Origin: Methanolacinia paynteri
Lineage (GTDB): Archaea; Halobacteriota; Methanomicrobia; Methanomicrobiales; Methanomicrobiaceae
Reading direction: 5' to 3'
Assembly: GCF_000784355.1 (NCBI RefSeq)
Contig: NZ_KN360940.1
Coordinates: 61,243-114,540 of the forward strand
DNA: 53,298 nucleotides
In this document: positions 33,377 through 50,988 of the stretch, one piece after another
How positions within the stretch are numbered: position 1 is the first letter of the stretch
How the letters are laid out: the number at the start of each line of letters is the position of its first letter
Notes under the pieces: generated by a model
Told to the model about the DNA's origin: nothing
The model's database searches: none
Seen by the model: only the letters and a program-made list of their open reading frames with translations
Made by a program: the position numbers and the translations under genes

Positions 33377-34711
33377 ATGGACTTAGACGCAATACTATCG
33401 GATACCGAAAACCGGCAGGTTGAATATAAAGAATCGGACAACGCAGCGATGTACAAAACTCTCTCTGCGTTCTCAAATACAAACGGGGGAGTCGTGCTGG
33501 TCGGTGTTGCAGACGACAAGGCTATTGTCGGTTTTAACTGCTCCAATAAAAAAATAAAAGAAATAACAGACACTATTGCAAATAAACTTCTGATCCATCC
33601 TGTAATTACATCTCATGCAGTCGAAGGAAAAAAAATTCTTAAGATCGAGGTCTCCAAAAGCCCAAACCCTGTTTCCTATGATGGTAAATACTATTCAAGA
33701 GTCGGAAATACAACCCGTGGAATGCAGGCAGAAGAATTAAAGCGTTATTTCCTAAGGACAACCCAGTGGGACAATATTCAAGGAGATTTTAATCCTGATG
33801 AAATCGATGAACAGACAGTGAAATCTTTTGTAAAGCTTGGCTTAGACAGCGGACGAATGCCTCCCTCTGCAGCCAGTGAATCTGTTACTGAAATATTAGA
33901 GCACTTGAATCTTCTGCATAACGGAAAACTGACAAACGGTGCAATTATCCTTTTCGGCAAAAATCCCCAAAAGTATTTCACAAACGCTCTTGTCCGAATA
34001 GGCCGTTTCAAAGAAGAAGACATAATTATCGGGGACAAACTGGCCGGCGGAAATCTATTCCGCCAGCTGGAGGGAGCTGAAGAAGCGATAAAAGGATTCA
34101 TCAACGTCAGGTACGAGATATCAGGAGACTCCTTCAAAAGAAAAGAGATCTGGGATTACCCTCTTAATGCAATAAGGGAAGCTTTGCTCAATTCGGTTGT
34201 TCACCGGGATTATTTTATGTCCAACAGGCAGACACAGATTAAAATCTTCGACGATTATATCTGGTTTCACAATCCCGGCGGCCTTCCCCTGGGCGTTACG
34301 ATCGACGACATTGTAAAACTCCATTCATCAATTCCGCGCAACCCGCTAATAGCGGATGTGATGTACAAATCGGATTTCATTGAGGCATGGGGCACGGGGA
34401 TAGAGAGGATGTGTTCTGCATTTTCGGATGCCGGATTACTACCCCCTGAGTTTAAAGAGGAGATGGGAGGCTTTTCTGTTTACTTCAGGAAGAGTTTCGA
34501 CCTTGAGCAAATCATGAAAAGTCAGGCCCTAAACGATCGACAGAAAAGAGCCGTAGAATACGTTATTGAAAATGGTGAAATTTCAAATAAAACTTATCAG
34601 GAATTGAATTCTGTCTCAAGGACTACGGCAATAAGGGATCTAAAAGAGCTTGTATCATCAGGAGTTCTCAAACGGACCGGTGTAGGTAAATCAACCGTTT
34701 ATAAGCAATAA
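33377..34711 (+). CDS. AlbA_2 / HATPase_c_4 protein (Schlafen-like, 'RecG-like' annotation)
   Basis: A 444-residue protein. Residues 1-120 form the AlbA_2 domain (RQVEYKESDNAAMYKTLSAFSNTNGGVVLVGVAD). The central part (about 255-330) has the ATP-binding motifs of HATPase_c_4: NAIREALLNSVVHRDY and IWFHNPGGLPLGVT. The C-terminus is a winged helix (SRTTAIRDLKELVSSGVLKRTG). Members are often annotated as helicases or regulators but lack helicase motifs; several occur in defence islands. It stands between two direct copies of a small-gene module and next to iteron-like repeats. A paralog is embedded in pglX at 43150. Confidence 0.85.
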   Translation: MDLDAILSDTENRQVEYKESDNAAMYKTLSAFSNTNGGVVLVGVADDKAIVGFNCSNKKIKEITDTIANKLLIHPVITSHAVEGKKILKIEVSKSPNPVSYDGKYYSRVGNTTRGMQAEELKRYFLRTTQWDNIQGDFNPDEIDEQTVKSFVKLGLDSGRMPPSAASESVTEILEHLNLLHNGKLTNGAIILFGKNPQKYFTNALVRIGRFKEEDIIIGDKLAGGNLFRQLEGAEEAIKGFINVRYEISGDSFKRKEIWDYPLNAIREALLNSVVHRDYFMSNRQTQIKIFDDYIWFHNPGGLPLGVTIDDIVKLHSSIPRNPLIADVMYKSDFIEAWGTGIERMCSAFSDAGLLPPEFKEEMGGFSVYFRKSFDLEQIMKSQALNDRQKRAVEYVIENGEISNKTYQELNSVSRTTAIRDLKELVSSGVLKRTGVGKSTVYKQ

Positions 34712-35636: not shown

Positions 35637-36563
35637 TTAATTTCCTTCATAGCTCCTTATTATCAATGATTTTGCTCTTTCAAGATCATCATCATTTCTA
35701 ATTAATATTTCAAGATCGCCAGTACCATAATGGCCGATAGTTCTTACATCCCGTAAAAATCCTTCTTTCAATTCAACAGAGTCGGGGTCCACCTTTATCC
35801 ATACAACGATCTCTTTTTTCTGATATCCAATAGTAACACATGCAAAATTCTTAATCCGCTTGAAAGCAACGTAGAACTTTAAAACTTTTGTCTGGACATC
35901 GTCACCGAGTGCTTCAATAAACGCTCGTAATTCCTCATACCTGTCTTTCAGATCGTCATCGGATTGTTCGAGATGTTCTGAAAATGTCTTATAAACAATC
36001 TGTTTCTTCCCTTTCACCGGGCTGATCTTCTTACTTTCGGATTCACCCCCGTTTTGCGCAGAGGTTGCATTCACCAATTCGAGGAGGAGAAGATCTGGAT
36101 CGAATTCACGATACCTTAAGAGTTCTATGTTACGATTTATCTGCTGCACTGCATGGAGATCGTATTTGGTAAAATCACCAGCTATACAGAGAAGACGGGG
36201 ATTACTCCAGTCTATTTTATCTTGCCACTCATTTCCCAGCTTTTTCAGTACTTTTAACTCGAACTCCCCTTTATGATCCATCAGCCAGTCGAGATAGAAT
36301 AACCCCTGATTGATAACATTTTCATTAATGGCTCGTTTATATTCGATTATTACAGGGAAACCATTCTCATCGATCCCCAGCGTATCAATACGGCCTCCAT
36401 GTGTCTTCCCGGTCGCATATTCACTCGCAAGGAATGTTATTCCAAGAAGAGACTCCAGGTTTTTCTCGATATATTTTTGAAGAGATTTTTCGAGGGCCAT
36501 AGACTGCCCTTTGAGTTCGGTCGCATTCCCGTCGGCCATGCTAAAGATACGAATATCTCCCAT
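35637..36563 (-). CDS. PD-(D/E)XK nuclease-like protein with DUF5655-type tail
   Basis: A 308-residue protein. Residues about 25-110 resemble the DUF91/NucS-like restriction-endonuclease fold: GGRIDTLGIDENGFPVIIEYKRA provides the D...E-x-K catalytic pattern. The C-terminal 120 residues (FSEHLEQSDDDLKDRYEELRAFIEALGDDVQ, then KNFACVTIGYQKKEIVVWIKV) match the DUF5655 type. The ATG at 36563 is chosen because GGTGA precedes it; a GTG at 36572 is possible. It is coupled to the EVE gene just upstream. Together they suggest a modification-dependent restriction pair, but cleavage is inferred. Confidence 0.75.
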   Translation of the reverse strand: MGDIRIFSMADGNATELKGQSMALEKSLQKYIEKNLESLLGITFLASEYATGKTHGGRIDTLGIDENGFPVIIEYKRAINENVINQGLFYLDWLMDHKGEFELKVLKKLGNEWQDKIDWSNPRLLCIAGDFTKYDLHAVQQINRNIELLRYREFDPDLLLLELVNATSAQNGGESESKKISPVKGKKQIVYKTFSEHLEQSDDDLKDRYEELRAFIEALGDDVQTKVLKFYVAFKRIKNFACVTIGYQKKEIVVWIKVDPDSVELKEGFLRDVRTIGHYGTGDLEILIRNDDDLERAKSLIIRSYEGN

Positions 36564-36568
36564 TGATT

Positions 36569-37024
36569 TCACCCTCTCGGAGTCTCGGCTGCCTTCATGA
36601 TATATTCATAATCTTCTTCCGGGATGGTCCTCATTGCCGTTCTCAGGTGGCCGGTCCACTGCTTCTTGTTGGTGATGAACTCCAGCTTTGGAATGAGTGA
36701 TTTGAAGTCCAGAGGTTCATCGAATATTTTGACGGGCTTCAGCTTCACGCGATAGGGGAATACTTCTTCCCCTGGCATTGTCGGCGGTTTGACGAAGACT
36801 TCTGACTGATCTTCGAAGGGTTTCGATGTTATCTCATAGGCGCCTGTTATTGCGGACGGGAGGATCGTATCTCCTGCATTCTCCTGGCGGACGAATATGG
36901 TGATCTTATCGCCGGGATTTGATCTTTCGATGCTGTTCTTATTCCTCTTCGGAACGCCCCAGATGTTTTTCTTCCTGATGATCTTCCAGTTGTCGCGGTT
37001 GGTGGATGCAATCCATATTGTCAT
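36569..37024 (-). CDS. EVE-domain protein
   Basis: A 151-residue protein whose body is an EVE domain: TIWIASTNRDNWKIIRKKNIWGVPKRNKNSIERSNPGDKITIFVRQ, then GAYEITSKPF and FPYRVKLKPVKIF. EVE/PUA-like domains bind modified bases such as methyl- or hydroxymethylcytosine and are often fused or linked to restriction nucleases. The start at 37024 is supported by ATATATTA centred about 28 bases upstream (leaderless). The longer frame to 37123 would have an unrelated hydrophobic start. It faces away from the BREX operon and is followed by the nuclease-like gene. Confidence 0.85.
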   Translation of the reverse strand: MTIWIASTNRDNWKIIRKKNIWGVPKRNKNSIERSNPGDKITIFVRQENAGDTILPSAITGAYEITSKPFEDQSEVFVKPPTMPGEEVFPYRVKLKPVKIFDEPLDFKSLIPKLEFITNKKQWTGHLRTAMRTIPEEDYEYIMKAAETPRG

Positions 37025-37166
37025 TGAAATGAGATTAGGGACCGGGAGTAATATATCTTTCATCGAAATGCCAATTGTCGTTTCATATAGAAATAGGCTA
37101 AAGCAATTAATGAAAAAATCCAATCTGTATAACTATTATAGATTCTCTACAATAGGAAATATTAGG
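37025..37166. promoter_or_regulatory. Divergent promoter between EVE gene and BREX operon
   Basis: These 142 bases separate the leaderless minus-strand EVE gene (TATA-like ATATATTA at about 37045-37060) from brxB on the plus strand. AT-rich TATAACTATTATAGATT near 37128-37144 could be the BREX promoter. No clear operator palindrome is visible. Confidence 0.5.
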
Positions 37167-37745
37167 ATGAACACCGAGACACGGATAGAACATCTCAAAG
37201 ATAAATTACTCAGTGATGTTTTTTTAGAAGGGAGAGGGCTTGGAAATGAAATTCCATTTTGGATCTTTGATTACCCACCCGAAGATGAACATCTGGTCCG
37301 CCACTCAATAAAAAGAATTGAAGAAATATTGAAATCCAATTCAATCAACTTTATTGAGATCGACCTTTATGAATTGTGTCTTGAAATTATCGATAGCAAA
37401 ATTAAATTTGAAAAAGTTATCGAATTTGAAAAGAAAAGGGGTTCAGACGAATTATTAAAAAAATTAAGAATAATATTAAAGCAGGATACTGTAAAGAAAG
37501 TTATAACCAGGAGACTTAGTGTCTGTGGTAATGTGGAGGTCGTCTTTTTAACAGGAATCGGGAAGGCATGGCCCATGATCAGATCGCACTCGATCTTAAA
37601 TAATTTGCAGCCGGTTTGGGGGAATACTCCGCTATTAGCCTTTTATCCGGGGGTATACAACAACACAGAACTAAATCTGTTCGGCAAGTTTGAGGATGGT
37701 AATTACTATCGCGCATTCAGGATAATCAACGAGGAAGAAGCATAG
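37167..37745 (+). CDS. brxB: BREX protein BrxB (DUF1788)
   Basis: A 192-residue protein starting at the ATG at 37167. The longer frame beginning at 36897 runs antisense through the EVE gene and is not real. Features match the DUF1788 family: ERIEHLKDKL-like start, EIPFWIFDYPPEDEHLVR, INFIEIDLYELCLEII, and the end GIGKAWPMIRSHSILNNLQPVWGNTPLLAFYPGVYNNTELNLFG. BrxB is essential for methylation and defence in BREX-1; its exact activity is unclear. It is the first gene of the operon here, as no brxA is seen upstream. brxC follows after 15 bases with a GGGAGG site. Confidence 0.9.
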   Translation: MNTETRIEHLKDKLLSDVFLEGRGLGNEIPFWIFDYPPEDEHLVRHSIKRIEEILKSNSINFIEIDLYELCLEIIDSKIKFEKVIEFEKKRGSDELLKKLRIILKQDTVKKVITRRLSVCGNVEVVFLTGIGKAWPMIRSHSILNNLQPVWGNTPLLAFYPGVYNNTELNLFGKFEDGNYYRAFRIINEEEA

Positions 37746-37760: not shown

Positions 37761-40700
37761 ATGGAACCCAAAATCAGTGATTTATTTTATAATGACATCA
37801 GAAGAGAGATCAACGGAGTTATTAAGGTTGATCAGTATGACGATCAAAATGTATTCACAGAACTTAATGAATATGTCGTGACCAGGGAGTCACTAAAATA
37901 TATCGATACTTTTTTTGAAAGATACCTGAATTCGATAAATAATCCTACTGATAAAACAGGTGTCTGGATCTCAGGAGATTTTGGATCAGGTAAATCCCAT
38001 TTCTTAAAGACGTTATCATACCTCCTTGAAAACAGGGAAGTTGCAGGGAAAACCGCACTTGAATTCTTTGAACAAAAGATCTCTGACCCGGGTATCCTAA
38101 ACACAATTGAAAAATCGGTAAAAACCGGTACAAAAGATATAATCCTGTTCAATATTGATTCCAAATCAGGAGAGACCTCTGAGAGAATAGTAGATATAAT
38201 GATGAGAGTCTTCAATGAAAAGAGAGGATATTTCGGGGATGTCTTCTGGATAGCGGAGATGGAAGAAAACCTCGAAGACAAGGGCCTCTTCGATTTATTT
38301 AAAGAAGAATTTTTAAAAATCAACGGAAATAGATGGGAGGAGATCCGTGAACAGTATTCTTTTGAGCAGGACGACATAATTGACGCCCTGGAAAAATGCG
38401 GTTTTCAAAGCAGAGACGCGTCTGAAAGAATGTTTGAATCAGACGGCCAGAACTACATCCTGACTCCTGAAAAATTTGTAAAAACCATTAAAAAGTACTG
38501 TGATTCCAAAGGGAAGGATCACCAGGTAGTATTCCTGATCGACGAGATCGGGCAGTACATCGGTGACAACAGTCATCTGATGCTTAACCTTCAGACTGTA
38601 GCAGAAGAGTTCGGGACTATACTTAGAGGGAAGGCATGGATAATTGTCACATCGCAGGCAGATATCGAGACTGCTCTTAACGGAATAAAAAGAAAGGATA
38701 CGAAACAGGACTTTTCAAAGATCCAGGCACGTTTTGATACGAGGATAAGTCTTTCCAGTGCAAATGTGGATGAAGTCATAAAAAAGAGAATTCTCAGGAA
38801 AAAAGATGAATCCAATGAGATGCTTTCTCTCTATTTTGAAGAGAAGAAGACTATCCTCAAAAACCTGATATCATTCTCGCAAGGCAGTGCTGAGATGAAG
38901 AAATACAGGGACTCAGAGGAGTTTGTCTCAGTATACCCTTTTGTTCCGTACCAGTTCAATGTCCTTCAAAAGGTATTCGAAAAGATTCGCACGACCGGTT
39001 TTACAGGCAAGCATCTTGCCAAAGGCGAACGCTCGATGCTCAATGCATACAAGGAGTCTGCTGAAAAATACGGGGACTCCGATATAGGGACTCTTATTCC
39101 GTTTTATTCGTTCTATGATACCATCGAGAGTTTCCTTGACCCAGTGATCATAAGAACAATTACTCAGGCAGGGGATAACGATAATCTTGAAGATTTTGAT
39201 TGCCTCATTCTAAAGACCCTCTTTATGATAAGGCATGTAAATGAATTGCAGCCCACACTTGACAATATTATAGTTTTATCACTTACAAATGTCGATGAAG
39301 ACAAACTCAGCCTTAAGGAGAGTGTTGTTGCCTCCCTAAACCGGCTTGAGAAAGAGACACTGATCAGTAAATCGGGTGATACATTCCATTTCCTTACAAA
39401 CGAAGAACAGGAGATAAACAGGGAGATTAAAAATATAGACATCGAAAGGCACAAAATTGTCCAGGAGATATATGAAGAGGTATTTAATTCAAATGATATC
39501 TGCCAGAAATCATACGGCGACTATAAATTCAACAAGTCTGTCGACGATAAACTGACGACTTCTCCTGATGCGGATCTCACAATCAGATTCCTGACACCGC
39601 GTTCTGATGAGTACCCGGACGACAGCGATCAGAGCACTTTTACCGGTGAAATTCTGAGTAATGTTGATTCAGAAGACACTCTTCTCTTTGTCTTTCCGAA
39701 AGATAGTAAATTTCTATCACAGATTGAAGAGTATCTCCAGATTGATGCATATTTCAAACGAAACGGTTTAAATCGCAGCGATGAGTTAATGCAGGGTATC
39801 CTTACGGCAAAGAAACAGGAGGCAGAGAGACTAAAGAATTCATCAGTTCTGGCGATCTGTGAAGGGGTTAAGAATGCAAGAGTTTTCATCGACAGGAGAA
39901 AGGTGGATCTCGGTTCCGTAGGTCCAAGAGAGAGGGTAAAAGAAGGATACGGGAAACTTGTGGAGAATGTTTACAGCAAGTCGAATTATGTGACAAAAGA
40001 GTTCGAATCTGAAAATGACATTATCAGGTTACTAAAGACAAACGATCTCGAAAAGTTTGGTCTCGGGAGGTCTGAGACAAATGAACTTGCTTTAAACGAG
40101 ATACTCAGTTACATCAGTATCAGGGATGAGAGAAAGATCCCGGTCGTTTTTAGCGAGTTAAGGGATCATTTTATGGGAAAACCATACGGATGGAAAAATT
40201 ACACAGTCTCTGGTCTTGTTGCAACTCTTTTCATGGGAGAGGATATCAGGCTCAGGTACCAGAGGACGTATCCTCCACTAAATCCGGAAGAGATTACAAA
40301 ATATCTGACAAGGAAAGAAAATTTCGACAAGGTGATTATCGAGATCCGGAAGAAGACCGGTATCGAGATCATAACCAATGTGAAGTCGGTTTTAAGGGAT
40401 GTCTTTGATAAGACCGCCCTTCCTGAGAAGGAGAATGATCTATATAATCTGGCAAGGGATCTTTTTGCGGGGAAAAGGGAAAAACTGTCTGAAGATCTTG
40501 TCAAATATTCGGAGGAGAGCAGGTATCCCGGAAGGAAACAGATCGAGAGTTACCTGGGATTCCTGAAAGAGATCCTGGCTGTGTCCGATCCTTCGGCTTT
40601 CCTGAAAAAGATCTCGGATGAAAAGGATGAGATCTTCAGGCTTAATGCAGAGGCAGAGCTTCCCTTAATATTTTTCGATGGGGGTCAAAAGGATATATTC

Positions 40701-41300
40701 AAGAGAATTCTCGATAAGGTCGAGGGATATAAGAGGAACGCCCGGTTCCTGACAGAAGAGGCGAAAGAAAGCCTTTCGCAGATCGAAAATATTCTTGCTT
40801 CGGATGAGCCGTATTCGGATATCAAAAATCTTAGCCATCTTGAGGCAATTGTCGAGTCGTCTCTTGCGGAATCTCTTGCAGAACTGAAGGATGAATTCAA
40901 AGATCAGGCTGAAAGCTATAAGTCCAGGCTCAGGAGTGAATTCAGTTATTCTTCTGTTAGTAATCCCGATATCGGAGGTTCCGTGGATGAAGCGTTTGAT
41001 TATCTTGCGGATGATGTTGGAAGATCTGGTGACTGCTCATTTATCAAATTGAAGATCGGCGATCTTTCGGGTCTTTATAAGGGGACATACAGGGAGATCG
41101 AAGAGATGATAAACTCGGAGAAGACGGCCGGACCCGGCGATGAAAAGGTCCCGGAGATCCCCCTCGATATTATTGACAAAACAGAAATATTCAGGACGAA
41201 GAAGACTATCGAGACCGAGGAAGATCTTGAGGAATATATCGCGGAGATCAAGGGAAGACTGAAGGAGCTTTTGAAGAAGAACAAGATCCAGGTGATCTGA
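37761..41300 (+). CDS. brxC: BREX ATPase BrxC
   Basis: A 1179-residue P-loop ATPase of the usual BrxC length. Near the N-terminus are GVWISGDFGSGKSHFLKTL (Walker A, 72-79) and QVVFLIDEIGQYIG (Walker B, about 253-266). Characteristic segments are FERYLNSINNPTDKTG and FVPYQFNVLQKVFEKIRTTGFTGKHLAKGERSML. The large C-terminal part is helical. BrxC is thought to couple ATP hydrolysis to the recognition or methylation complex. pglX begins three bases after its stop, so the two are translationally linked. Confidence 0.95.
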   Translation: MEPKISDLFYNDIRREINGVIKVDQYDDQNVFTELNEYVVTRESLKYIDTFFERYLNSINNPTDKTGVWISGDFGSGKSHFLKTLSYLLENREVAGKTALEFFEQKISDPGILNTIEKSVKTGTKDIILFNIDSKSGETSERIVDIMMRVFNEKRGYFGDVFWIAEMEENLEDKGLFDLFKEEFLKINGNRWEEIREQYSFEQDDIIDALEKCGFQSRDASERMFESDGQNYILTPEKFVKTIKKYCDSKGKDHQVVFLIDEIGQYIGDNSHLMLNLQTVAEEFGTILRGKAWIIVTSQADIETALNGIKRKDTKQDFSKIQARFDTRISLSSANVDEVIKKRILRKKDESNEMLSLYFEEKKTILKNLISFSQGSAEMKKYRDSEEFVSVYPFVPYQFNVLQKVFEKIRTTGFTGKHLAKGERSMLNAYKESAEKYGDSDIGTLIPFYSFYDTIESFLDPVIIRTITQAGDNDNLEDFDCLILKTLFMIRHVNELQPTLDNIIVLSLTNVDEDKLSLKESVVASLNRLEKETLISKSGDTFHFLTNEEQEINREIKNIDIERHKIVQEIYEEVFNSNDICQKSYGDYKFNKSVDDKLTTSPDADLTIRFLTPRSDEYPDDSDQSTFTGEILSNVDSEDTLLFVFPKDSKFLSQIEEYLQIDAYFKRNGLNRSDELMQGILTAKKQEAERLKNSSVLAICEGVKNARVFIDRRKVDLGSVGPRERVKEGYGKLVENVYSKSNYVTKEFESENDIIRLLKTNDLEKFGLGRSETNELALNEILSYISIRDERKIPVVFSELRDHFMGKPYGWKNYTVSGLVATLFMGEDIRLRYQRTYPPLNPEEITKYLTRKENFDKVIIEIRKKTGIEIITNVKSVLRDVFDKTALPEKENDLYNLARDLFAGKREKLSEDLVKYSEESRYPGRKQIESYLGFLKEILAVSDPSAFLKKISDEKDEIFRLNAEAELPLIFFDGGQKDIFKRILDKVEGYKRNARFLTEEAKESLSQIENILASDEPYSDIKNLSHLEAIVESSLAESLAELKDEFKDQAESYKSRLRSEFSYSSVSNPDIGGSVDEAFDYLADDVGRSGDCSFIKLKIGDLSGLYKGTYREIEEMINSEKTAGPGDEKVPEIPLDIIDKTEIFRTKKTIETEEDLEEYIAEIKGRLKELLKKNKIQVI

Positions 41301-41302
41301 GT

Positions 41303-43153
41303 ATGGATAAAGCGAGGGTGCAGGAATTCTCTGATACTCTCAGGGAAAGGCTTTCTGAAGAGACGAAGGCACGTGCAGCTCATTTCGGGATTTTCCCGAA
41401 AAAGATCACTGAGGTTGAAAAAGAGCTTGATGACTCTGTTATCATCGGCGGAAAGGTATATAGTAAAAGCATTGGCAAACAGAGGAAGGTCCTCGTCGAA
41501 GAGATCTCCAAAAAGGGGTATGAGAGGGTTATCGGGGAGATAACCTATACATGGTTTAACAGGTTTGTGGCCATCCGGTTTATGGAGGCGAACGGGTATA
41601 TGCCGGTGAGAATTTTTTCTTCGGATTCTGAAGAGAAAAAGGAACCTGATCTCCTTACAAAAGCACAGAATATTTCTTTTATGAAGGTAGATCGCGATTA
41701 TATCCTCGATCTGAAATCCGAGGGGAAAGATGAGGAGCTCTACAGGTATCTGATTCTCAGACTCTGCAACTTTCTTCATGAGACGATGCCTTTTATGTTC
41801 GAGGAGATACAGGATTATTCCGAACTTTTATTTCCCGGACGTCTCCTGCATACCGATTCCCTTCTCGTTGAACTGAATGATATTATCAGCGGGGACGACT
41901 GGAAGGAGACTGAGATTCTCGGGTGGATCTACCAGGATTACATTGCGGAGAAGAAGGGCCGGCTGATGAAGGCGAAGAAGGCATATTCGCCGGACCAGAT
42001 CCCGGCTGTAACCCAGCTCTTCACTCCGAAGTGGATTGTTCAGTACCTTGTTGAAAATTCTCTCGGGAGGTTATGGATGCTGAACCACCCGAATTCACGT
42101 CTTTTTGAGAAGATGGATTACTATATCGCACCCGTGGAGAGGGAGACCGGCTTCTTAAGGATTAGTTCGCCGGAAGAGATCCGGGTATGTGATCCTGCCT
42201 GCGGGTCGGGGCATATTCTTGTGTATGCCTTTGATCTTTTGTACGAGATCTACAAGGAGGAGGGATATCTTGAATCGGAGATCCCCGGGCTGATCCTGAG
42301 CAACAATCTCTATGGGATTGAGATCGACAGGCGTGCGGGTTCTATTGCGGCCTTTGCTCTCGTAATGAAGGCGAAGAACAGGAACAGGAGATTCTTTGAC
42401 AATCCTGTGCAGCCCCAGGTCTGCGTTCTTGAAAATATATCTTTTGAGGAGGACGAGCTTGAGGGTTATATGTCTGCAGTCGGGAGCAATCTTTTCTCGC
42501 GGGAATTGAAGGAGACGATTCTTCAGTTCACTGAAGCGGACAATTTCGGGTCCCTGATCCGGCCTGCATCTATCGATCCGTCCTATATCCGCCGGATGCT
42601 TGACGATAAAAAAATCTCAGAGGATCTTATCCTCTACGAGACACACAAAAAGGTCCTGCAGGCCCTTGAGCAGGCGGAATATCTTGAGCCCCGTTATCAT
42701 GTGGTTGTCGCCAACCCGCCGTATATAGGAAACAAGGGGCTTAATGCCGGGCTGAAAAAGTTTGCAAAGGACAATTATCCTGACAGCAAATCAGATCTCT
42801 TTGCGATGTTTATCGAGCGGAACCTGGATCTTTCGATTGATAACGGGTTGGTTGCGATGATTACCATGCAGAGCTGGATGTTTTTATCTTCTTTTGAAAA
42901 ACTTCGCGAGAAGATATTGGACAATGACACGATAATTACAATGGCTCATTTCGGCCCCAGAGCATTTGACAGCATAGGCGGAGAGGTCGTTTCAACCACA
43001 GCTTTTGTTATAGAAAATGCTCACCGTCCTGATTATCAGGGTGCATATGTCCGTCTTGTTGACGGCAGGAATGAATCGGAAAAGAAAAAAGCACTCCGTG
43101 ATGCAATTCTTCAATCAGGTAATGATACAAGTTCACAGATGGAGGCAAAATGA
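41303..43153 (+). CDS. pglX: PglX methyltransferase, N-terminal half
   Basis: A 616-residue protein corresponding to the first half of BREX-1 PglX (about 1200 residues). It contains the N-terminal helical domain and the complete catalytic core: DPACGSGH (motif I, from 297) and ANPPYIGN (motif IV, NPPY 471-474), marking N6-adenine methylation. It ends shortly after VRLVDGRNESEKKKALRDAI with a short unrelated tail. In full-length PglX the sequence would continue directly into the FYRASADDF segment found at the start of the gene at 44592. Its stop overlaps the AlbA_2 start (ATGA). It may act with the C-terminal half as a two-subunit enzyme. Confidence 0.93.
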   Translation: MDKARVQEFSDTLRERLSEETKARAAHFGIFPKKITEVEKELDDSVIIGGKVYSKSIGKQRKVLVEEISKKGYERVIGEITYTWFNRFVAIRFMEANGYMPVRIFSSDSEEKKEPDLLTKAQNISFMKVDRDYILDLKSEGKDEELYRYLILRLCNFLHETMPFMFEEIQDYSELLFPGRLLHTDSLLVELNDIISGDDWKETEILGWIYQDYIAEKKGRLMKAKKAYSPDQIPAVTQLFTPKWIVQYLVENSLGRLWMLNHPNSRLFEKMDYYIAPVERETGFLRISSPEEIRVCDPACGSGHILVYAFDLLYEIYKEEGYLESEIPGLILSNNLYGIEIDRRAGSIAAFALVMKAKNRNRRFFDNPVQPQVCVLENISFEEDELEGYMSAVGSNLFSRELKETILQFTEADNFGSLIRPASIDPSYIRRMLDDKKISEDLILYETHKKVLQALEQAEYLEPRYHVVVANPPYIGNKGLNAGLKKFAKDNYPDSKSDLFAMFIERNLDLSIDNGLVAMITMQSWMFLSSFEKLREKILDNDTIITMAHFGPRAFDSIGGEVVSTTAFVIENAHRPDYQGAYVRLVDGRNESEKKKALRDAILQSGNDTSSQMEAK

Positions 43154-44595
43154 CGATCCCGATCTCCGAACTCATCAAAATGCCGGAGGGAAAGACCCTT
43201 GAATTCAAGCGGGATCTTTCTTCGCCGAAGAATATCCTGAAGACGATCGTTGCTTTTTCAAATACTGCCGGCGGGAAGATATTCATCGGTGTGGAGGACA
43301 AGTCACGTGATATTACCGGGATTCCTGATCCGCTGAGCGAGGAGGAGAGGCTTTGCAGCCTTATTGCCGACAATATCGCGCCGAGGCTGGTCCCGGATGT
43401 CGAACTTGTCTCCATCGATGACAAGACTCTTCTTGCCGTCGAGGTTTACCCGAGCGGGAGGCGGCCTCATTTTCTGAAGAAGGAAGGACCGGATGAGGGG
43501 GTCTATGTAAGACTTGGTTCAACCAACCGGAAGGCCGACCGGGAACTTATCGAAGAACTGGATCGGAGTGTTTCCGGGGTTTCATTCGATGAGACCGCTG
43601 TGCCGGATCTCTCTCCTGATGACCTGGATATCGAGGCCGCAAAGGATGACTTCAAAGGAGTCAGGGAGCTGAATGAAGAAGAGCTGCTGACGCTTAAATT
43701 CCTGGTTCCTGTTCAGGGGAAACTGGTTCCGACGAATGGCTCCATGCTTCTTTACGGTAAGAGGAGGGATTACTATTTCCCTGATGCATGGGTCCAGTGC
43801 GGGCGGTTTATGGGAAAAGACAAGACTTACATCTTCGACCATACCGAGATTCACGAGAATCTTCCTGCTACGGTCGAGAGCGTCATGCTTTTTCTGAAGA
43901 AGCATGCCTTTAAGGGTGCTGATATCTCTGGTATCAAACGCAGGGATGTCTGGAGCATTCCCCTGACAATTCTTCGCGAGGCTGTTATCAATGCGGTTAT
44001 CCATACGGATTATTCGCAGAGGGGTGCACCTATCAGGGTCTCTTTCTTCGACGACAGGATCGAGATCGAAAACCCCGGTATCCTCCTCCCCGGGATGACG
44101 ATCGAGGATGTGAAGCAGGGGATATCGAAGATCAGAAACCGCGTCATTGCAAGAGTCTTCCGTGAGCTCGACCTGATTGAACAATGGGGGAGCGGTTTTC
44201 GCCGGATATTGAATGAGGCGGAAAGGCTCGGCCTGCCCGAACCCGGGATTGAAGAGATCGGGATGAGGATCAGGGTGACTGTTTTTCTGGCAGAAAACAT
44301 TGAGATTAGGACAACCGAACAAGTAACCGAACAAGTAACCGAACAAGTAACCGAACAAGTAAAACGCCTGGTGGCCTGCCTGAAGGAAGAGCCGCTGAGT
44401 GTAAAAGAGGCGATGGAAGCTCTCGGACTGAACCACCGGCCGACATTTATGTATGATTACCTGAAGCCTGCAACAGATGCCGGACTTGTGGAGATGACAC
44501 AGCCGGATTCACCGAAGAGCCCTAAACAGAAGTACCGGCTGACAAAAAAAGGAGTGTCTCTCATCTCAAAAATAGCGGAGGATAACCAGTCATGA
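43150..44595 (+). CDS. AlbA_2 / HATPase_c_4 protein embedded between the pglX halves
   Basis: A 481-residue protein of the same family as 33377-34711. The AlbA_2 domain occupies about 1-115 (EGKTLEFKRDLSSPKNILKT, GKIFIGVEDKSRDITGI). The ATP-binding part has LREAVINAVIHTDYSQRG and IEIENPGILLPGMT (about 275-320), followed by GSGFRRILNEAE. The Thr-Glu-Gln-Val unit repeats four times (389-404), then a winged helix. Overlaps of ATGA at both ends couple it to the two pglX halves. Such proteins occur in BREX loci as accessory genes, but a position inside pglX is unusual. The role is unknown. Confidence 0.88.
   Translation: MTIPISELIKMPEGKTLEFKRDLSSPKNILKTIVAFSNTAGGKIFIGVEDKSRDITGIPDPLSEEERLCSLIADNIAPRLVPDVELVSIDDKTLLAVEVYPSGRRPHFLKKEGPDEGVYVRLGSTNRKADRELIEELDRSVSGVSFDETAVPDLSPDDLDIEAAKDDFKGVRELNEEELLTLKFLVPVQGKLVPTNGSMLLYGKRRDYYFPDAWVQCGRFMGKDKTYIFDHTEIHENLPATVESVMLFLKKHAFKGADISGIKRRDVWSIPLTILREAVINAVIHTDYSQRGAPIRVSFFDDRIEIENPGILLPGMTIEDVKQGISKIRNRVIARVFRELDLIEQWGSGFRRILNEAERLGLPEPGIEEIGMRIRVTVFLAENIEIRTTEQVTEQVTEQVTEQVKRLVACLKEEPLSVKEAMEALGLNHRPTFMYDYLKPATDAGLVEMTQPDSPKSPKQKYRLTKKGVSLISKIAEDNQS
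44314..44361 (+). repeat. Four tandem copies of a 12-base unit (ACCGAACAAGTA)
   Basis: The unit encodes Thr-Glu-Gln-Val and is repeated four times within the embedded AlbA_2 gene. Copy-number change would lengthen or shorten the linker by four residues without a frameshift. Similar TEQV-type linkers are common in this protein family. Confidence 0.85.
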
Positions 44596-46256
44596 CCTCA
44601 GGAAATGCAAACAATCCGGTCCCGAACTTCTACCGGGCCTCAGCCGACGATTTCAGGAAGATCCCCGGGAGCCCGATTGCTTATTGGGTTAGTGAGAAAT
44701 TTAGAAGTTTGTTTTGTGAAGATCAGCTATATAACTTCACAGAATCTGGTGGGAGATGTAAAACACATAATGATGAATTGTATGTCAGAATGATTTGGGA
44801 AACCTCCAAAAATAGAATTGGAACAACTAATTTCTGGAAGTTATATAATAAAGGTGGTCCCTCACGTAAATGGTATGGGAATCTAGATTACTTAATTAAA
44901 TGGACTGAAGATGCAAAAATAAAATATTCACAATCTGGAGGATTAAGTAATCAATCAACGTGGAATCGAATAGGAATAACTTGGTCTGGAATTTCTTCTA
45001 GAAAAACAGCATACAGAATAAAAATTAAAGAATCTGAATATTCATCCGCGTCTCCTACAATTTTATCAAGCGAAAAATTGTCCAATAATAATATTTTGGG
45101 ATTCCTCAATACAAAAATATCATTTCAAGCAATGATGCTTATAAACCCAACAATGCAAGTAAACGTTGGAGACGCATTGAAATTACCCTCTAAGATGATT
45201 ATATCCGGGGATACGATCGAAAAGAATGTTGATTCACTAATCAATCTCGCAAAAACAGACTGGGACTCCTACGAGACCTCATGGGATTTCGAATCGCTTC
45301 CCCTTCTCTCCCCCGAATACAAGTCCCCGACCATAAAGGAGACCTACACAAAACTCCGGTCGCACTGGCGTGAGATGACCCTTGAGATGCAGAGACTCGA
45401 AGAGGAGAACAACAGGATCTTCATTGAAGCATACGGGCTTGAAGACGAACTGACTCCCGACGTTCCTCTCTCCGAGATAACACTCACATGCAACCCGCAT
45501 TACCGGTATGGCGGGAAGAGGAACGAAGAAGAACTCGAAGCACTGCTCCTCAAAGACACGGTGAAGGAGCTTATCTCGTATGCGGTCGGCTGCATGTTCG
45601 GGCGGTACTCGCTCGATAAGCCGGGACTGATTCTTGCAAACCAGGGCGAGAAGAAAGACGACTATCTCGCACAGGTACCTGAACCGTCATTCAGGCCGGA
45701 CGACGACAACATCATCCCCGTCCTCGACGACGAGTATTTCACCGACGATATCGTATCAAGGTTCATGGAGTTCCTGAAGACTACATTCGGAAAAGAAACC
45801 CTCTCAAAGAACCTCGACTTCATCGCCGCCGCACTGACCGGAAAGAGCAGCGCCTCGCCGGAGGAGACAATCAGGGACTACTTCATCAGGGACTTTTACA
45901 AAGACCACGCCAGGACATACAAAAAGAGGCCGATATACTGGATGTTCTCCTCCGGAAAGAACCAGGGATTCAACGCACTCATATACATACACAGGTACGA
46001 TAAGACCACCCTTGCCAAGATGAGGACCGACTACCTCCTCGAACTCGAATCCAAACTATACGCAGAGGTAAAAGTGCTCCCTGAAGAAACGGAGAGAAAC
46101 AAGGCGCGGCTGGCAAAGATCAAAAAGCAGATCGAAGAGATGCAGAAATACGACGAACTCCTCAACAACAAGGCATTATCCCTAATAGAGATCGATCTCG
46201 ACGACGGAGTCAAAGTCAACTATGAAAAGTTCGAAGGACTTGTAAGGGAGATCTGA
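44592..46256 (+). CDS. pglX: PglX methyltransferase, C-terminal (target-recognition) half
   Basis: A 554-residue protein matching the second half of BREX-1 PglX. It begins at NFYRASADDFRKIPGSPIAYWVS, the segment that in full-length PglX follows the catalytic core. The conserved end is RPIYWMFSSGKNQGFNALIYIHRYDKTTLAKMRTDYL with a coiled-coil tail. It has no methyltransferase motif, so alone it is probably the specificity part. Bases about 44690-45230 (residues about 33-213) are strikingly AT-rich compared with both flanks. The frame differs from the N-terminal half, and both halves are intact, adding up to the length of a complete PglX. Confidence 0.92.
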   Translation: MTSGNANNPVPNFYRASADDFRKIPGSPIAYWVSEKFRSLFCEDQLYNFTESGGRCKTHNDELYVRMIWETSKNRIGTTNFWKLYNKGGPSRKWYGNLDYLIKWTEDAKIKYSQSGGLSNQSTWNRIGITWSGISSRKTAYRIKIKESEYSSASPTILSSEKLSNNNILGFLNTKISFQAMMLINPTMQVNVGDALKLPSKMIISGDTIEKNVDSLINLAKTDWDSYETSWDFESLPLLSPEYKSPTIKETYTKLRSHWREMTLEMQRLEEENNRIFIEAYGLEDELTPDVPLSEITLTCNPHYRYGGKRNEEELEALLLKDTVKELISYAVGCMFGRYSLDKPGLILANQGEKKDDYLAQVPEPSFRPDDDNIIPVLDDEYFTDDIVSRFMEFLKTTFGKETLSKNLDFIAAALTGKSSASPEETIRDYFIRDFYKDHARTYKKRPIYWMFSSGKNQGFNALIYIHRYDKTTLAKMRTDYLLELESKLYAEVKVLPEETERNKARLAKIKKQIEEMQKYDELLNNKALSLIEIDLDDGVKVNYEKFEGLVREI

Positions 46257-46311: not shown

Positions 46312-48936
46312 ATGCCGATACTAAGCCTGGAGAAGACAAACGCCGCAATACTTGAAAAATTCAGCAGAATATCTGAATTTGAAAAGAGAAAGATTGTCTT
46401 CTGGTACGACAGTGAACAGACCGCCGGAGAAGAAGATCTTCACGCCATCATTCAGACCCTCCGGCAAAAAGGCATAAAAACACTTATCCTCGGAGATAAC
46501 TTCTACGAGATCAAAAAAACTCTCGAACACGACGATACGGAATCGAATTATCTCGTCTACTCCCCAAAACCCGAAAGACCATTCCAGGAGAACTGGCTTT
46601 TAGACATCCAGCTATACTCGGAAAGATTTGAAAACAGCCGGATATCCGATATAAAATCAGAGATCGGGATAGAAGGCTACAGCCTTGACAACTTCCTCGA
46701 TAAGCACAAGAAGTTCTTCGCCAACAAAAGAAGAGTCGCCGCATTTAAAAAATTCTATGAGGAAAGATGGAAAGAAGAAGACTTCATAAAAGGAATATTT
46801 GCAGTAATTACCGGATCGACCGTACCTGACGAAAAAGAGATTGTAAAAAACATACTCCTGGACTCCCTCTCAGAAGAAGAGAACAAGATGTGGGAGGATG
46901 TTACCCGCTACAACCTCGAAGAAGCCTTCTGGAAGATCGCAGAAAGAAACTTCGGATTTTATAGAGAACACCCCACACTCGGAAAACTATTCCTGAGCTT
47001 TCTGATAACCCACATCGACAGAAACTCAACACTCCCTCTCGGATCGCTGCTCGAAACTTACGTCAACCGGAAAAGGCAGAGCAATGAATGTGAGATATTC
47101 ATCTCAGGCTGGATGGACAACTCGAAAGACTCCTCCCTGTTCGACGAATACTGCCGAAAACTTCTGCTCGAAGAAGACAAAAAACTTGAAAAAGAACTGA
47201 CATCCATTCTCAACAAAGAGAAAGTCGAATGCTACCTGGAAGTGGAAGCGCCGGACATTTTTGATAAAAGCATAATCAGAAAGATAGTCGCCACAATATC
47301 AAAAGGCGGCAGCGATTATGATAAATACCTCGAATGGATAGAAGCACGGAAAACAAAACATTACTATACCGAATTCAGGGAGATCTACTCTGCACTCAGA
47401 TACGCAATAATGCTCATCCGCCTCTCGGAAGAGATCGAAGAGAGGGACATCCCGGAAAGCAGCCTCAATGAACTCTTCATAAACTATACCACAAATTATT
47501 ATCTCCACGACTTCTATTACCGGAAATTCTACTCCCACTATGACAAAACAAGCGGGAAAGATATCCTGAAAAACAGTATCCGGGAAAAAGTTGAAAGAGA
47601 ATACCGGAGCGCAAACGAAAAGCTACTTATGAAATGGAGCAGTCTCATTGAAGCCCGGCCCGACGGAAGATGGGGAATAGAGCTCATCGGCAACCAGGAA
47701 GACTTCTTCACTAACCATGTTGCAAAGATTATCAAAAGAAACGACAGGGACAAAGTCGCAGTCATAATCTCAGACGCCATGAGATACGAGGTTGCCTCCG
47801 AACTGAAAGTTCTCCTTAACATAACTACAAACGGCACAGTTGAGATGAAGACGATGGCCGGCTGCCTGCCATCCTATACAAGACTCGGAATGGCATCCCT
47901 GCTCCCACATAAAAAACTCGAATACAGAAAAGATCGTGTCATCGTAGACGGAACCGATTCCGACGGCCTGAAAAACCGCGAAAAGATCCTTACGTCCTAC
48001 GAGAAGGAATCGATAGCCTTCAATTTCAGGGATTTTCGGAACCTGAAATCAGATGAGGCAAGAGAGCTGATCAAGGGAAAAAAGGTTGTCTATATCTACC
48101 ACAACAAAATCGACGAGACAGGAGACAGCAAAGCGTCAGAAGATGAAGTCTTCGAATCCGCCGAGTCTGCCATCCGGGATATCGACGAAATAGTAAACCG
48201 CCTCGGAAGATCCCTGAATGTAAACAACATAATAATCACGGCCGATCACGGCTTCATCTACAAACGCGACAACCTTGAGAGTGCCGATATCGTAGAGACG
48301 ACCGGTTTTGACAAAGAAGATATCCTGGTAACAAATAAAAGATTTATAATCACCAGCCAGCAGACCGAACTTCCGAACACTCACAGGTTCATGATGACCT
48401 ATCCCTCCGATTCAGGTGAACAACTCTATCTCTATACTCCATTCGCCGATCTCCGTTTCAAACTCCCGGGAGGAGGAAGAAACTTTGTTCACGGAGGCTT
48501 ATCTCTCCAGGAGATAGTGATTCCGGTTATTCTCTACAACCATAACAGATCCACATCAGACCTCGACAAAAAGGGGATCGGGCATGGAAAGGTAGGAATA
48601 ACAACAATCGGACATATTCAAAAAATAACCAGCAACCCGTTTAAAATCAGACTGCTCCAGACCGAAAACGTGACAGACAAACGCGAACCGCTGAGATGCA
48701 GGATTGCTCTCTATGACAATACAGGGGAAAGAGTCAGTGACGAAAAAACCATCATCGCCGATAAGACCTCGGATGAACCGAACGAAAGAATCTTTGAGGC
48801 AATACTTACATTGGGCAGTAATGTTAAAAACGGGATATATATCCTGAAAGCCATCGATGAGGACATAAAGGCCAAATACACCGATGTTCTTGATATGGTT
48901 GTTGAAGTTGATATTCTGATAACCGATGATTTTTGA
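46312..48936 (+). CDS. pglZ: BREX alkaline-phosphatase-fold protein PglZ
   Basis: An 874-residue protein of the BREX-1 PglZ type. The N-terminal 450 residues are helical. The phosphatase-fold core has VAVIISDAMRYEVASEL with the metal-binding D488, and IITADHGFIYKR with D645-H646. The KLPGGGRNFVHGGLSLQEIVIPVI segment near 720 is typical. The C-terminal 130 residues form beta domains. PglZ is required for both methylation and defence in BREX. Codons lean to the C-ending style seen in the second half of pglX. Start spacing from pglX is 55 bases, with an AAGGAAAAGAG site. Confidence 0.95.
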   Translation: MPILSLEKTNAAILEKFSRISEFEKRKIVFWYDSEQTAGEEDLHAIIQTLRQKGIKTLILGDNFYEIKKTLEHDDTESNYLVYSPKPERPFQENWLLDIQLYSERFENSRISDIKSEIGIEGYSLDNFLDKHKKFFANKRRVAAFKKFYEERWKEEDFIKGIFAVITGSTVPDEKEIVKNILLDSLSEEENKMWEDVTRYNLEEAFWKIAERNFGFYREHPTLGKLFLSFLITHIDRNSTLPLGSLLETYVNRKRQSNECEIFISGWMDNSKDSSLFDEYCRKLLLEEDKKLEKELTSILNKEKVECYLEVEAPDIFDKSIIRKIVATISKGGSDYDKYLEWIEARKTKHYYTEFREIYSALRYAIMLIRLSEEIEERDIPESSLNELFINYTTNYYLHDFYYRKFYSHYDKTSGKDILKNSIREKVEREYRSANEKLLMKWSSLIEARPDGRWGIELIGNQEDFFTNHVAKIIKRNDRDKVAVIISDAMRYEVASELKVLLNITTNGTVEMKTMAGCLPSYTRLGMASLLPHKKLEYRKDRVIVDGTDSDGLKNREKILTSYEKESIAFNFRDFRNLKSDEARELIKGKKVVYIYHNKIDETGDSKASEDEVFESAESAIRDIDEIVNRLGRSLNVNNIIITADHGFIYKRDNLESADIVETTGFDKEDILVTNKRFIITSQQTELPNTHRFMMTYPSDSGEQLYLYTPFADLRFKLPGGGRNFVHGGLSLQEIVIPVILYNHNRSTSDLDKKGIGHGKVGITTIGHIQKITSNPFKIRLLQTENVTDKREPLRCRIALYDNTGERVSDEKTIIADKTSDEPNERIFEAILTLGSNVKNGIYILKAIDEDIKAKYTDVLDMVVEVDILITDDF

Positions 48937-48951: not shown

Positions 48952-50988
48952 ATGACAGATCAGTATGGTATGGAAACGGACAAAAAACTCAACCTGTACT
49001 TCCCCGGCCGGGTCGTAAGAAAAGACCTCACAAAGAAGCTCAAAGGCAGTAACAACGTTCCGGTATATGTCCTTGAGTACCTGCTTGGCTCGAACTGCGC
49101 CACAGATGACGAAGAACTCATCAAAGAAGGGGTCAGGAAAGTAAAACGCATCTTATCGGACAACTACGTCCGGCCCGACGAAGCCGAATTGATAAAGTCA
49201 AGGATACGGGAGACCGGTTATTACACAGTCATCGATAAGATCACCGTCCATCTCAATGAAAGAAGAGATGTATATGAAGCTGAATTCTCATCACTCGGCA
49301 TAAGGGAGATCGAAGTTGATCCCGAGACAGTAAAAAAATATGAAAAGCTCCTCGGAGGAGGGATCTGGTGCATAGTAAAGATGGAATATTCCCCGGAATC
49401 CTCCCGCTCCCCCTTCATCATCTCCAGTTTAAAACCCATCCAGATACCAAATATGGATATCAATGAACTTATCGACCGGAGAAAAGAATTTACGAAGGAT
49501 GAGTGGATCGATGTCCTGTTAAGAACAATAGGGATGGAGCCTGACAAACTGGAATATTCTGTCAAATGGCACCTTCTTGAGAGACTGGTTCCTCTTGCAG
49601 AAAATAATTACAACCTCTGCGAACTCGGACCGAGGAGTACAGGCAAATCTCATGTTTACAAGGAGATCTCACCAAATTCAATACTTATCTCTGGCGGACA
49701 GACAACTGTGGCAAACCTCTTCTACAACCTCAGTTCAAGACAGGTAGGACTTGTCGGATTGTGGGATGTCGTCGCGTTTGATGAAGTCGCCGGAATCAGG
49801 TTCAAGGATAAAGACGGAATCCAGATCTTAAAGGATTACATGGCATCAGGATCATTTGCAAGAGGTAAGGACCAGATAAATGCAAATGCTTCGATTGTAT
49901 TTGTCGGAAACGTAAACCAGAGCATCTCATCACTATTGAAAACCGCACACCTCTTCGCTCCTTTCCCCGACGCAATGAACAACGACAGTGCATTTTTCGA
50001 CAGAATTCATTATTATCTCCCCGGGTGGGAAGTCCCGAAATTCAGACCAGAGCATTTCACAGAGAGATCCGGTTTCATCGTAGACTACCTTGCAGAGTTC
50101 CTGCGGGAGATGAGAAAAAGATCTTTCGGAGATCACATATTCAAACATTTCAGGTTCGGAAACAATCTCAACCAGAGAGATGTAATCGCAGTGAAAAAGA
50201 CATTTTCCGGTCTTATGAAAATAATCTATCCGGATGACAGCGCCTCAAAGGAAGATGCACGTGAAATCCTGGAATATGCCCTTACCGGACGAAGAAGAGT
50301 CAAAGAGCAACTTAAAAAGATCGGAGGTATCGAATTCTATGATGTCAACTTTTCATACATTGATCTCGAAGAAAGCTCCGAACACTTCGTTACCGTTCCG
50401 GAAAGCGGCGGCAGCAAATTAATTCCCGAGGGAATGGGAAAACCGGGACAGGTATTTTCTGTCAACAGGAACAATGAAGGCAAGATTGGAGTATATAAGT
50501 TTGAACTCCAGGTAGTTGCAGGTTCGGGGAAATATGAGAGATCCGGACTTGGCTCAAATTCAAAGGCAAAAGAAGCTGTTCAGACCGCATTCAATTACTT
50601 CAGGGCAAATGCAAAGTCTGTAAGCCAGAGCATCTCGACGAAAGAAAAGGATTATCAGCTTCATGTTCAGGATCTGACAGGTGTCGGAATGACCGACGGG
50701 CTTGCACTCCCCGCATTTATAAGTCTCTGCTCCGGCGCCCTGGAAAAACCGCTACATGAACAGATTGTAGTTCTCGGAACATTTACAATCGGCGGCTCTA
50801 TAAGTGTGATTGATAATCTTTCTGATCTCCTGCAGGTCTGCCTTGATGCTGGTGCAAAGAAGGTCCTGATACCTATATCTTCTGCAGGAAAGATTTCAAC
50901 AGTCCCGCCGGATCTATTCAGTAAATTCCAGATCTCCTTCTATGAAGATCCGGTGGATGCAGTGTATAAATCTCTGGTGCTTTCTTAG
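48952..50988 (+). CDS. brxL: BREX protein BrxL (AAA ATPase with Lon-like domain)
   Basis: A 678-residue protein. The N-terminal part (KLNLYFPGRVVRKDLTKKLKG) and AAA core with GPRSTGKS (226-233) and VVAFDEVAGIRFKDKDG are BrxL hallmarks. The C-terminal 130 residues form a Lon-like domain (GVGMTDGLALPAFISLCSGAL, then LDAGAKKVLIPISS). BrxL forms hexameric rings on DNA and is needed for phage exclusion but not methylation. A TGGAGG site lies about 12 bases upstream. It is the last gene of the operon and converges with the Orc1/Cdc6 gene across 41 bases. Confidence 0.95.
   Translation: MTDQYGMETDKKLNLYFPGRVVRKDLTKKLKGSNNVPVYVLEYLLGSNCATDDEELIKEGVRKVKRILSDNYVRPDEAELIKSRIRETGYYTVIDKITVHLNERRDVYEAEFSSLGIREIEVDPETVKKYEKLLGGGIWCIVKMEYSPESSRSPFIISSLKPIQIPNMDINELIDRRKEFTKDEWIDVLLRTIGMEPDKLEYSVKWHLLERLVPLAENNYNLCELGPRSTGKSHVYKEISPNSILISGGQTTVANLFYNLSSRQVGLVGLWDVVAFDEVAGIRFKDKDGIQILKDYMASGSFARGKDQINANASIVFVGNVNQSISSLLKTAHLFAPFPDAMNNDSAFFDRIHYYLPGWEVPKFRPEHFTERSGFIVDYLAEFLREMRKRSFGDHIFKHFRFGNNLNQRDVIAVKKTFSGLMKIIYPDDSASKEDAREILEYALTGRRRVKEQLKKIGGIEFYDVNFSYIDLEESSEHFVTVPESGGSKLIPEGMGKPGQVFSVNRNNEGKIGVYKFELQVVAGSGKYERSGLGSNSKAKEAVQTAFNYFRANAKSVSQSISTKEKDYQLHVQDLTGVGMTDGLALPAFISLCSGALEKPLHEQIVVLGTFTIGGSISVIDNLSDLLQVCLDAGAKKVLIPISSAGKISTVPPDLFSKFQISFYEDPVDAVYKSLVLS

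Follow-up and report, generated by a model that had tools for sequence, protein, structure and literature searches.

A two-gene PglX with an exchangeable gene between its halves in the BREX locus of Methanolacinia paynteri and in other prokaryotes

In a bacteriophage exclusion (BREX) locus of the archaeon Methanolacinia paynteri, the methyltransferase PglX is encoded by two genes, pglX-N and pglX-C, and a complete gene of the AlbA_2 family is placed between them. The locus lies in a stretch of 53,298 nt that we refer to as the window (GCF_000784355.1, contig NZ_KN360940.1, forward strand, 61,243-114,540), and all coordinates below are positions in this window. The three open reading frames (ORFs) are intact, lie in three different frames, and are joined by ATGA overlaps at 43150 and 44592, exactly as an original prediction from the DNA alone had described them together with their coordinates and lengths. 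The same cut recurs in many lineages, where the gap is filled by different genes or, in one locus, by none. We consider it probable (roughly 0.7) that this PglX is a two-subunit enzyme, similar to the M and S subunits of type I systems, whose gene pair contains an exchangeable slot for back-up effectors, rather than one part of an obligate three-gene unit.

The cut in PglX, its recurrence and the two halves

The prediction that the third ORF continues a full-length PglX held in the alignments. The full-length PADLOC profile PDLC02521 is matched from position 1 to 624 in the first ORF and from 623 to 1170 in the third, and E. coli BrxX aligns with pglX-N up to residue 634 and with pglX-C from residue 637 on, so no sequence is lost at the junction. 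Half-length PADLOC profiles fit the two ORFs end to end: the first ORF covers positions 1-605 of PDLC02525 (607 positions, N half only), and the third covers positions 25-580 of PDLC02516 (593 positions, C half only). Cryo-EM of BrxX revealed two jaws, formed by residues 1-650 and 651-1205 and joined by flexible hinge loops at 638-675 (PMC11842806). By alignment, the natural cut falls at the beginning of this hinge, between the methyltransferase half and the target-recognition half. The gamma-class N6 motifs DPACGSG and NPPY are found in pglX-N at residues 297 and 471, the full set of PglX domains is spread across both ORFs, and motif I and/or NPPY are retained in split copies as in fused ones. 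What is missing is the single polypeptide, as PglX is distributed over two ORFs in different frames.

That the split is private to this archaeon is ruled out by its recurrence in archaea and in many bacterial phyla. A search with PglX-N retrieved 80 GTDB loci, of which 36 were split, 43 were one-piece and one (L087) was undetermined; as the loci were chosen by likeness to a split copy, 36/80 is not a natural frequency. The split hosts include Methanosarcinales/Methanomicrobiales, Chlorobiaceae, Pseudomonas, Burkholderiales, Kiritimatiellae, Hydrogenedentota, Melainabacteria and others; two genomes from the family of M. paynteri, G014 and G012, are split as well. The order PglX-N/AlbA_2/PglX-C, for which a search in other genomes had been suggested, was found in relatives. 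In a phylum survey of 393 genomes, strong matches to the N half were in ORFs of either about 620-640 codons (nine genomes and, broken over contigs, G066) or 1150-1190 codons. In bacterial splits, PglX-N ends 1-8 residues past query position 602-605, and PglX-C in most cases starts at position 13; a clean stop, a Shine-Dalgarno sequence and a start occur at the same cut in many lineages. The PglX-N tree groups 14 archaeal splits in a single supported clade, next to which nine archaeal one-piece copies form a clade of their own. Taken over all rows, a minimum of three state changes is forced and the tree as drawn needs seven; it does not give their direction.

The halves are also maintained. In comparison with L026, the nearest relative and a member of the same family, the ratio of nonsynonymous to synonymous substitutions (dN/dS) is 0.09 for pglX-N, 0.04 for the AlbA_2 gene and 0.11 for pglX-C at near-saturated dS, which indicates purifying selection on all three genes. 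Accumulated mutations or a lack of the split in relatives would have spoken for a disrupted pglX; the low dN/dS and the sharing of the split by relatives instead bear out the prediction of a deliberate division. Only one part of pglX-C deviates: residues ~40-215 are just ~20% identical to L026 in blocks, with 80-93% identity in the remainder, and the GC content of this segment is ~31-32% as opposed to 45-56% in the flanking sequence, which together look like a swapped target-recognition domain (TRD). Protein distances over ten archaeal loci, which are few while the contrast is large, were compared with permutation p values. PglX-N and PglX-C outside the TRD co-vary tightly (r=0.97, p=0.0004), and the correlation of PglX-N with the TRD is low (r=0.21). 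The AlbA_2 protein co-varies with neither PglX-N nor PglX-C; with PglX-N, the correlation is not significant (r=0.41, p=0.11) and becomes -0.30 within Methanosarcinaceae. By these distances, the halves belong together, and the cargo does not belong to them. The predicted two-subunit methyltransferase after the fashion of type I M and S subunits is supported, with both halves being functional in appearance.

The gap between the halves and its cargo

The gap contained cargo in 36 of 37 complete cases, and most of this cargo belongs to known defence families. In most archaea, as well as in some Chlorobiaceae and Methylococcaceae, it is filled by AlbA_2 proteins of the window's kind. Other loci have HEC-02A/HEC-02B pairs (clusters of 11 and 8), UG5-nitrilase reverse transcriptases (8), SIR2 (with HerA in L050), Shedu (2), YhcG/DUF1016 (2), KilA-N (2), and a DUF4062-HATPase_c_4 protein in L035, whereby the cluster counts include loci with the C half beyond the contig end. 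Exchange is evident from two pairs of near-identical PglX-N proteins with different cargo: L050 (SIR2 and HerA) and L054 (AlbA_2), and L056 and L059, which share the reverse transcriptase and differ in what precedes it (an AAA pair and Shedu, respectively). Partial C-terminal pieces of AlbA_2 genes lie beside other cargo in L027 (9206-11467), L050 (9770-10132) and L051 (10731-11111), which suggests that AlbA_2 has been replaced there by YhcG, SIR2-HerA or AAA pairs.

The rule that a split never occurs without cargo was true of the first 33 complete gaps and was overturned by L143 (G153), in which just 13 bp and no gene separate the halves. This locus has brxB, brxC, pglZ and brxL as well as a GmrSD gene after pglX-C. 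Since L143 is nested among split loci with AlbA_2 on the PglX-N tree, the simplest reading is that the cargo has been lost, with PglX remaining in two subunits.

One-piece loci more often carry cargo between brxC and pglX: this interval is longer than 400 bp in 26 of 41 one-piece loci versus 6 of 40 split loci (p 1e-5, a guide only, as related loci are not independent). The AlbA_2 family of the window also accompanies one-piece pglX, which it precedes in L149 and L150 and follows in L063, L082, L095, L099 and L151. A second, distant AlbA_2 family (~556-590 residues, 27% identity) was seen between brxC and pglX in bacteria (L052, L054, L057, L058, L064, L069, L074, L088, L089, L100). Some gap proteins have no Pfam match, namely those at 11192-13447 in L113 (751 residues), 9214-9594 in L146, 6339-6782 in L147 and 8890-9345 in L148, and by their position they are candidates for new anti-phage genes.

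The cargo protein and the weighing of explanations

The cargo protein of the window begins with an SLFN_AlbA_2 domain (E=1.6e-26) that has the E-x4-E motif and the aspartate of Schlafen nucleases. At least 90% of 25 homologues retain E13 and E18, and all retain D50. The three residues align with E-x4-E and D of SLFN11; in human SLFN13, E208/E213/D251 were shown to be catalytic (PMC5862951). The N-box region of the ATPase is kept as well (E277, N281). A linker of four VTEQ units, encoded by a perfect 12-bp repeat, connects the ATPase with the winged helix-turn-helix (wHTH) domain, and relatives vary in repeat type (VTEQ, SPTQ, LRPE, LKSR) and copy number. That AlbA_2 genes are known near BREX, as the original prediction stated, agrees with Rakesh and Krishnan (2026, PMC12839542), who count Schlafen-kinase-wHTH proteins encoded beside BREX genes, present in 1017 taxa or more, among the auxiliary effectors and propose tRNA cleavage as their activity. 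A precedent for such an arrangement is PrrC, which is silent inside the EcoprrI complex and released by a T4 product (PMC3874165), and because of this analogy we regard the AlbA_2 cargo as a putative back-up effector that may guard BREX.

The two-subunit mechanism could then operate as follows. PglX-N would bind S-adenosylmethionine and carry out catalysis, PglX-C would contribute the TRD, the spacer and the C-terminal domain, and both halves, translated separately from one operon, would reassemble to a methylating enzyme at a surface that is a mere flexible hinge in one-piece BrxX, similar to gamma-class methyltransferases with M and S subunits. The gap between the halves is a slot for exchangeable anti-phage genes. 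Its occupant here is a Schlafen/AlbA_2 protein that combines an intact RNase triad with a GHKL-type ATPase domain and a winged helix, and its most likely role is that of a back-up effector. This protein would remain silent while BREX works and would cleave RNA, possibly tRNA-like substrates, once infection or an anti-BREX factor disturbs BREX, comparable to PrrC in the EcoprrI type I operon. More tentatively, and with considerable doubt on our side, the separation of PglX may be a recurrent state of BREX that keeps the specificity subunit exchangeable and places a guard in mid-operon, with the respective cargo (Schlafen RNase, HEC-02, UG5 reverse transcriptase, SIR2 or Shedu) docking on assembled or disassembled PglX and firing upon inhibition of BREX by a phage.

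Several points weigh against such a functional two-subunit enzyme with an RNase as cargo. BrxX alone is inactive even as a single chain, and motifs are thus no guide to activity. Went et al. (PMC11341690) did not succeed in expressing the C-terminal domain of Salmonella PglX in isolation. Structure predictions were of low confidence for PglX-C (mean pLDDT, the predicted local distance difference test, 58.5) and for the AlbA_2 protein (mean pLDDT 64), and AlbA_2 proteins are also annotated as transcriptional regulators on account of their wHTH domain, which makes the RNase role uncertain. Moreover, PF08849, the profile for BrxA, had no match at E<=1 in the whole genome. It likewise detected no BrxA in related archaea whose genomes have this kind of BREX, split or one-piece, while it gave strong matches (1e-50 and 1e-59) in two bacterial BREX genomes. 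With brxB, brxC, pglX as two genes, pglZ and brxL in the gene order of BREX type 1, the locus is by its gene content a BREX of the type 1 kind without a recognizable BrxA, and a highly divergent BrxA is possible.

What alternatives exist for the two-subunit PglX with an exchangeable slot? The original prediction saw in the AlbA_2 ATPase a structural or regulatory subunit of an obligate three-component methyltransferase, made in fixed ratio with both halves. That the AlbA_2 gene is under strong purifying selection would agree with this. So would the junctions in ten archaeal loci, of which 7 have the ATGA overlap at the first and 7 a tight second one, and the occurrence of close family members directly before or after one-piece pglX too. 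However, the same slot holds other cargo or, in L143, none, and together with the missing co-variation this rules out a constant partnership; in addition, close AlbA_2 relatives occur outside BREX. In L152-L157, these lie beside genes for MutS-like, TPR, BrxC/D-like, helicase and nucleotidyltransferase proteins, and in these few loci no stand-alone copy was seen between hsdM and hsdS. A fixed ratio was deduced from the ATGA overlaps, but GGAGG precedes both internal starts (by 4 bp at the AlbA_2 gene and 10 bp at pglX-C), each gene can thus be started independently, and relatives differ in their second junction, from an overlap up to a spacing of +454 bp. We consider an obligate unit improbable.

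Far less credible still is a pglX disrupted by insertion of the AlbA_2 gene into the coding sequence of a now dead system. The AlbA_2 gene indeed occurs elsewhere and moves, but such an insertion is contradicted by the relatives with the same cut and clean signals, the purifying selection on both halves, the complete junction and the persistence of a cargo-free two-gene form. It is somewhat easier to imagine, and in our view nonetheless unlikely, that the split is real and the AlbA_2 protein regulates transcription of the BREX operon without being an effector. The C-terminal wHTH, its variability (25-83% identity) and the usual annotation of the family would fit a regulator, whereas the mid-operon site, at which other loci have nucleases, reverse transcriptases or SIR2 effectors, and the conserved Schlafen residues argue for an effector.

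Relation to known systems and genes around the split

PglX is usually regarded as one chain that serves both as methyltransferase and as specificity factor. The two-gene form resembles one-piece PglX/BrxX of BREX type 1 (E. coli, Salmonella; PDB 9EWZ, 8C45) in domains, their order, motif I, NPPY and the variable TRD, and differs by the hinge cut, the two polypeptides and the unrelated gene between them. With type I HsdM and HsdS and with gamma-class M and S methyltransferases (PMC3874165), it shares separate catalytic and specificity subunits and TRD exchange in the S-like part, but it has PglX sequence, one TRD, a PglX C-terminal domain, and BrxC/PglZ instead of HsdR as partners. No HsdR-type gene was found among the operon genes scanned, and both halves matched PglX best in PADLOC, which sets the locus apart from type I restriction-modification. 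EcoprrI, with its embedded gene for the anticodon nuclease PrrC (PMC3874165), is similar in having a probable RNase gene inside a modification operon, but PrrC belongs to another protein family, and that the AlbA_2 protein guards BREX is our own inference. The Schlafen-kinase-wHTH effectors (PMC12839542) are alike in domain architecture and BREX association, while a two-gene PglX and cargo between its halves are unmentioned in the text examined.

The half-length PADLOC models are labelled only as PglX, without description of a two-subunit form, and they imply that split sequences have been encountered before. The claim that no AlbA_2 gene dividing pglX had been published thus stands within the literature searched, but split copies must have been among the seeds of these models. 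Goldfarb and colleagues reportedly described irregularities of pglX in 2015. A description of a two-gene PglX or of the slot was not found in the literature searched, including the portions covered of PMC12839542, PMC11341690 and PMC11842806; this search was short on subscription papers, and an earlier mention in Goldfarb et al. (2015) is possible.

The natural separation offers a direct route to the questions which part of PglX binds BrxC, BrxB or PglZ and how specificity is read, and work with it may be possible where attempts with single domains of one-piece PglX have failed. The slot, being fixed, is a searchable address, as any unknown gene between the halves is a candidate anti-phage gene, and it raises the question whether such cargo guards BREX.

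Table 1. Features of the split pglX and of the BREX genes around it (window coordinates)
Feature	Position	Strand	Remark
pglX-N	41303..43153	+	616 aa; N-terminal helical domain and gamma-class N6-adenine methyltransferase core; M-like subunit
Shine-Dalgarno GGAGG of AlbA_2 gene	43141..43145	+	within 3' end of pglX-N; ATGA overlap follows at 43150
AlbA_2 cargo gene	43150..44595	+	481 aa; SLFN_AlbA_2, HATPase_c_4 and Fic-like_C wHTH
In-frame tandem repeat, 12 bp, AACCGAACAAGT x4.2	44313..44362	+	VTEQ repeats; joins kinase-like and wHTH domains of cargo protein
Shine-Dalgarno GGAGG of pglX-C	44577..44581	+	
pglX-C	44592..46256	+	554 aa; TRD, spacer, C-terminal domain; S-like subunit
Hypervariable TRD segment	44709..45236	+	pglX-C residues ~40-215; low GC, divergence from L026
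brxB	36897..37745	+	BrxB domain from residue ~91; true start probably near 37167 (comparison with L026)
brxC	37761..41300	+	domain and PADLOC profile matches
pglZ	46312..48936	+	domain and PADLOC profile matches
brxL	48952..50988	+	domain and PADLOC profile matches

A second PglX of this family was not found in the source genome (single match). Divergently from brxB, an EVE-domain gene is encoded on the minus strand (36569-37123), an arrangement that recurs in L026 (4099-4554), and behind it lies a candidate defence gene with DUF5655/PDC-S18 (35637-36572, minus strand). A gene for a tyrosine recombinase/phage integrase (27814-28962), some 8 kb upstream of the BREX genes, is compatible with a mobile island. 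Four more AlbA_2 genes are present in the genome, at 33377-34711 of the window and, with our contig handles, at C41:28454-28771, C41:116986-117156 and C27:135027-135359; three of them are on the same contig within 90 kb of the BREX locus, one being 2.2 kb upstream of the brxB start.
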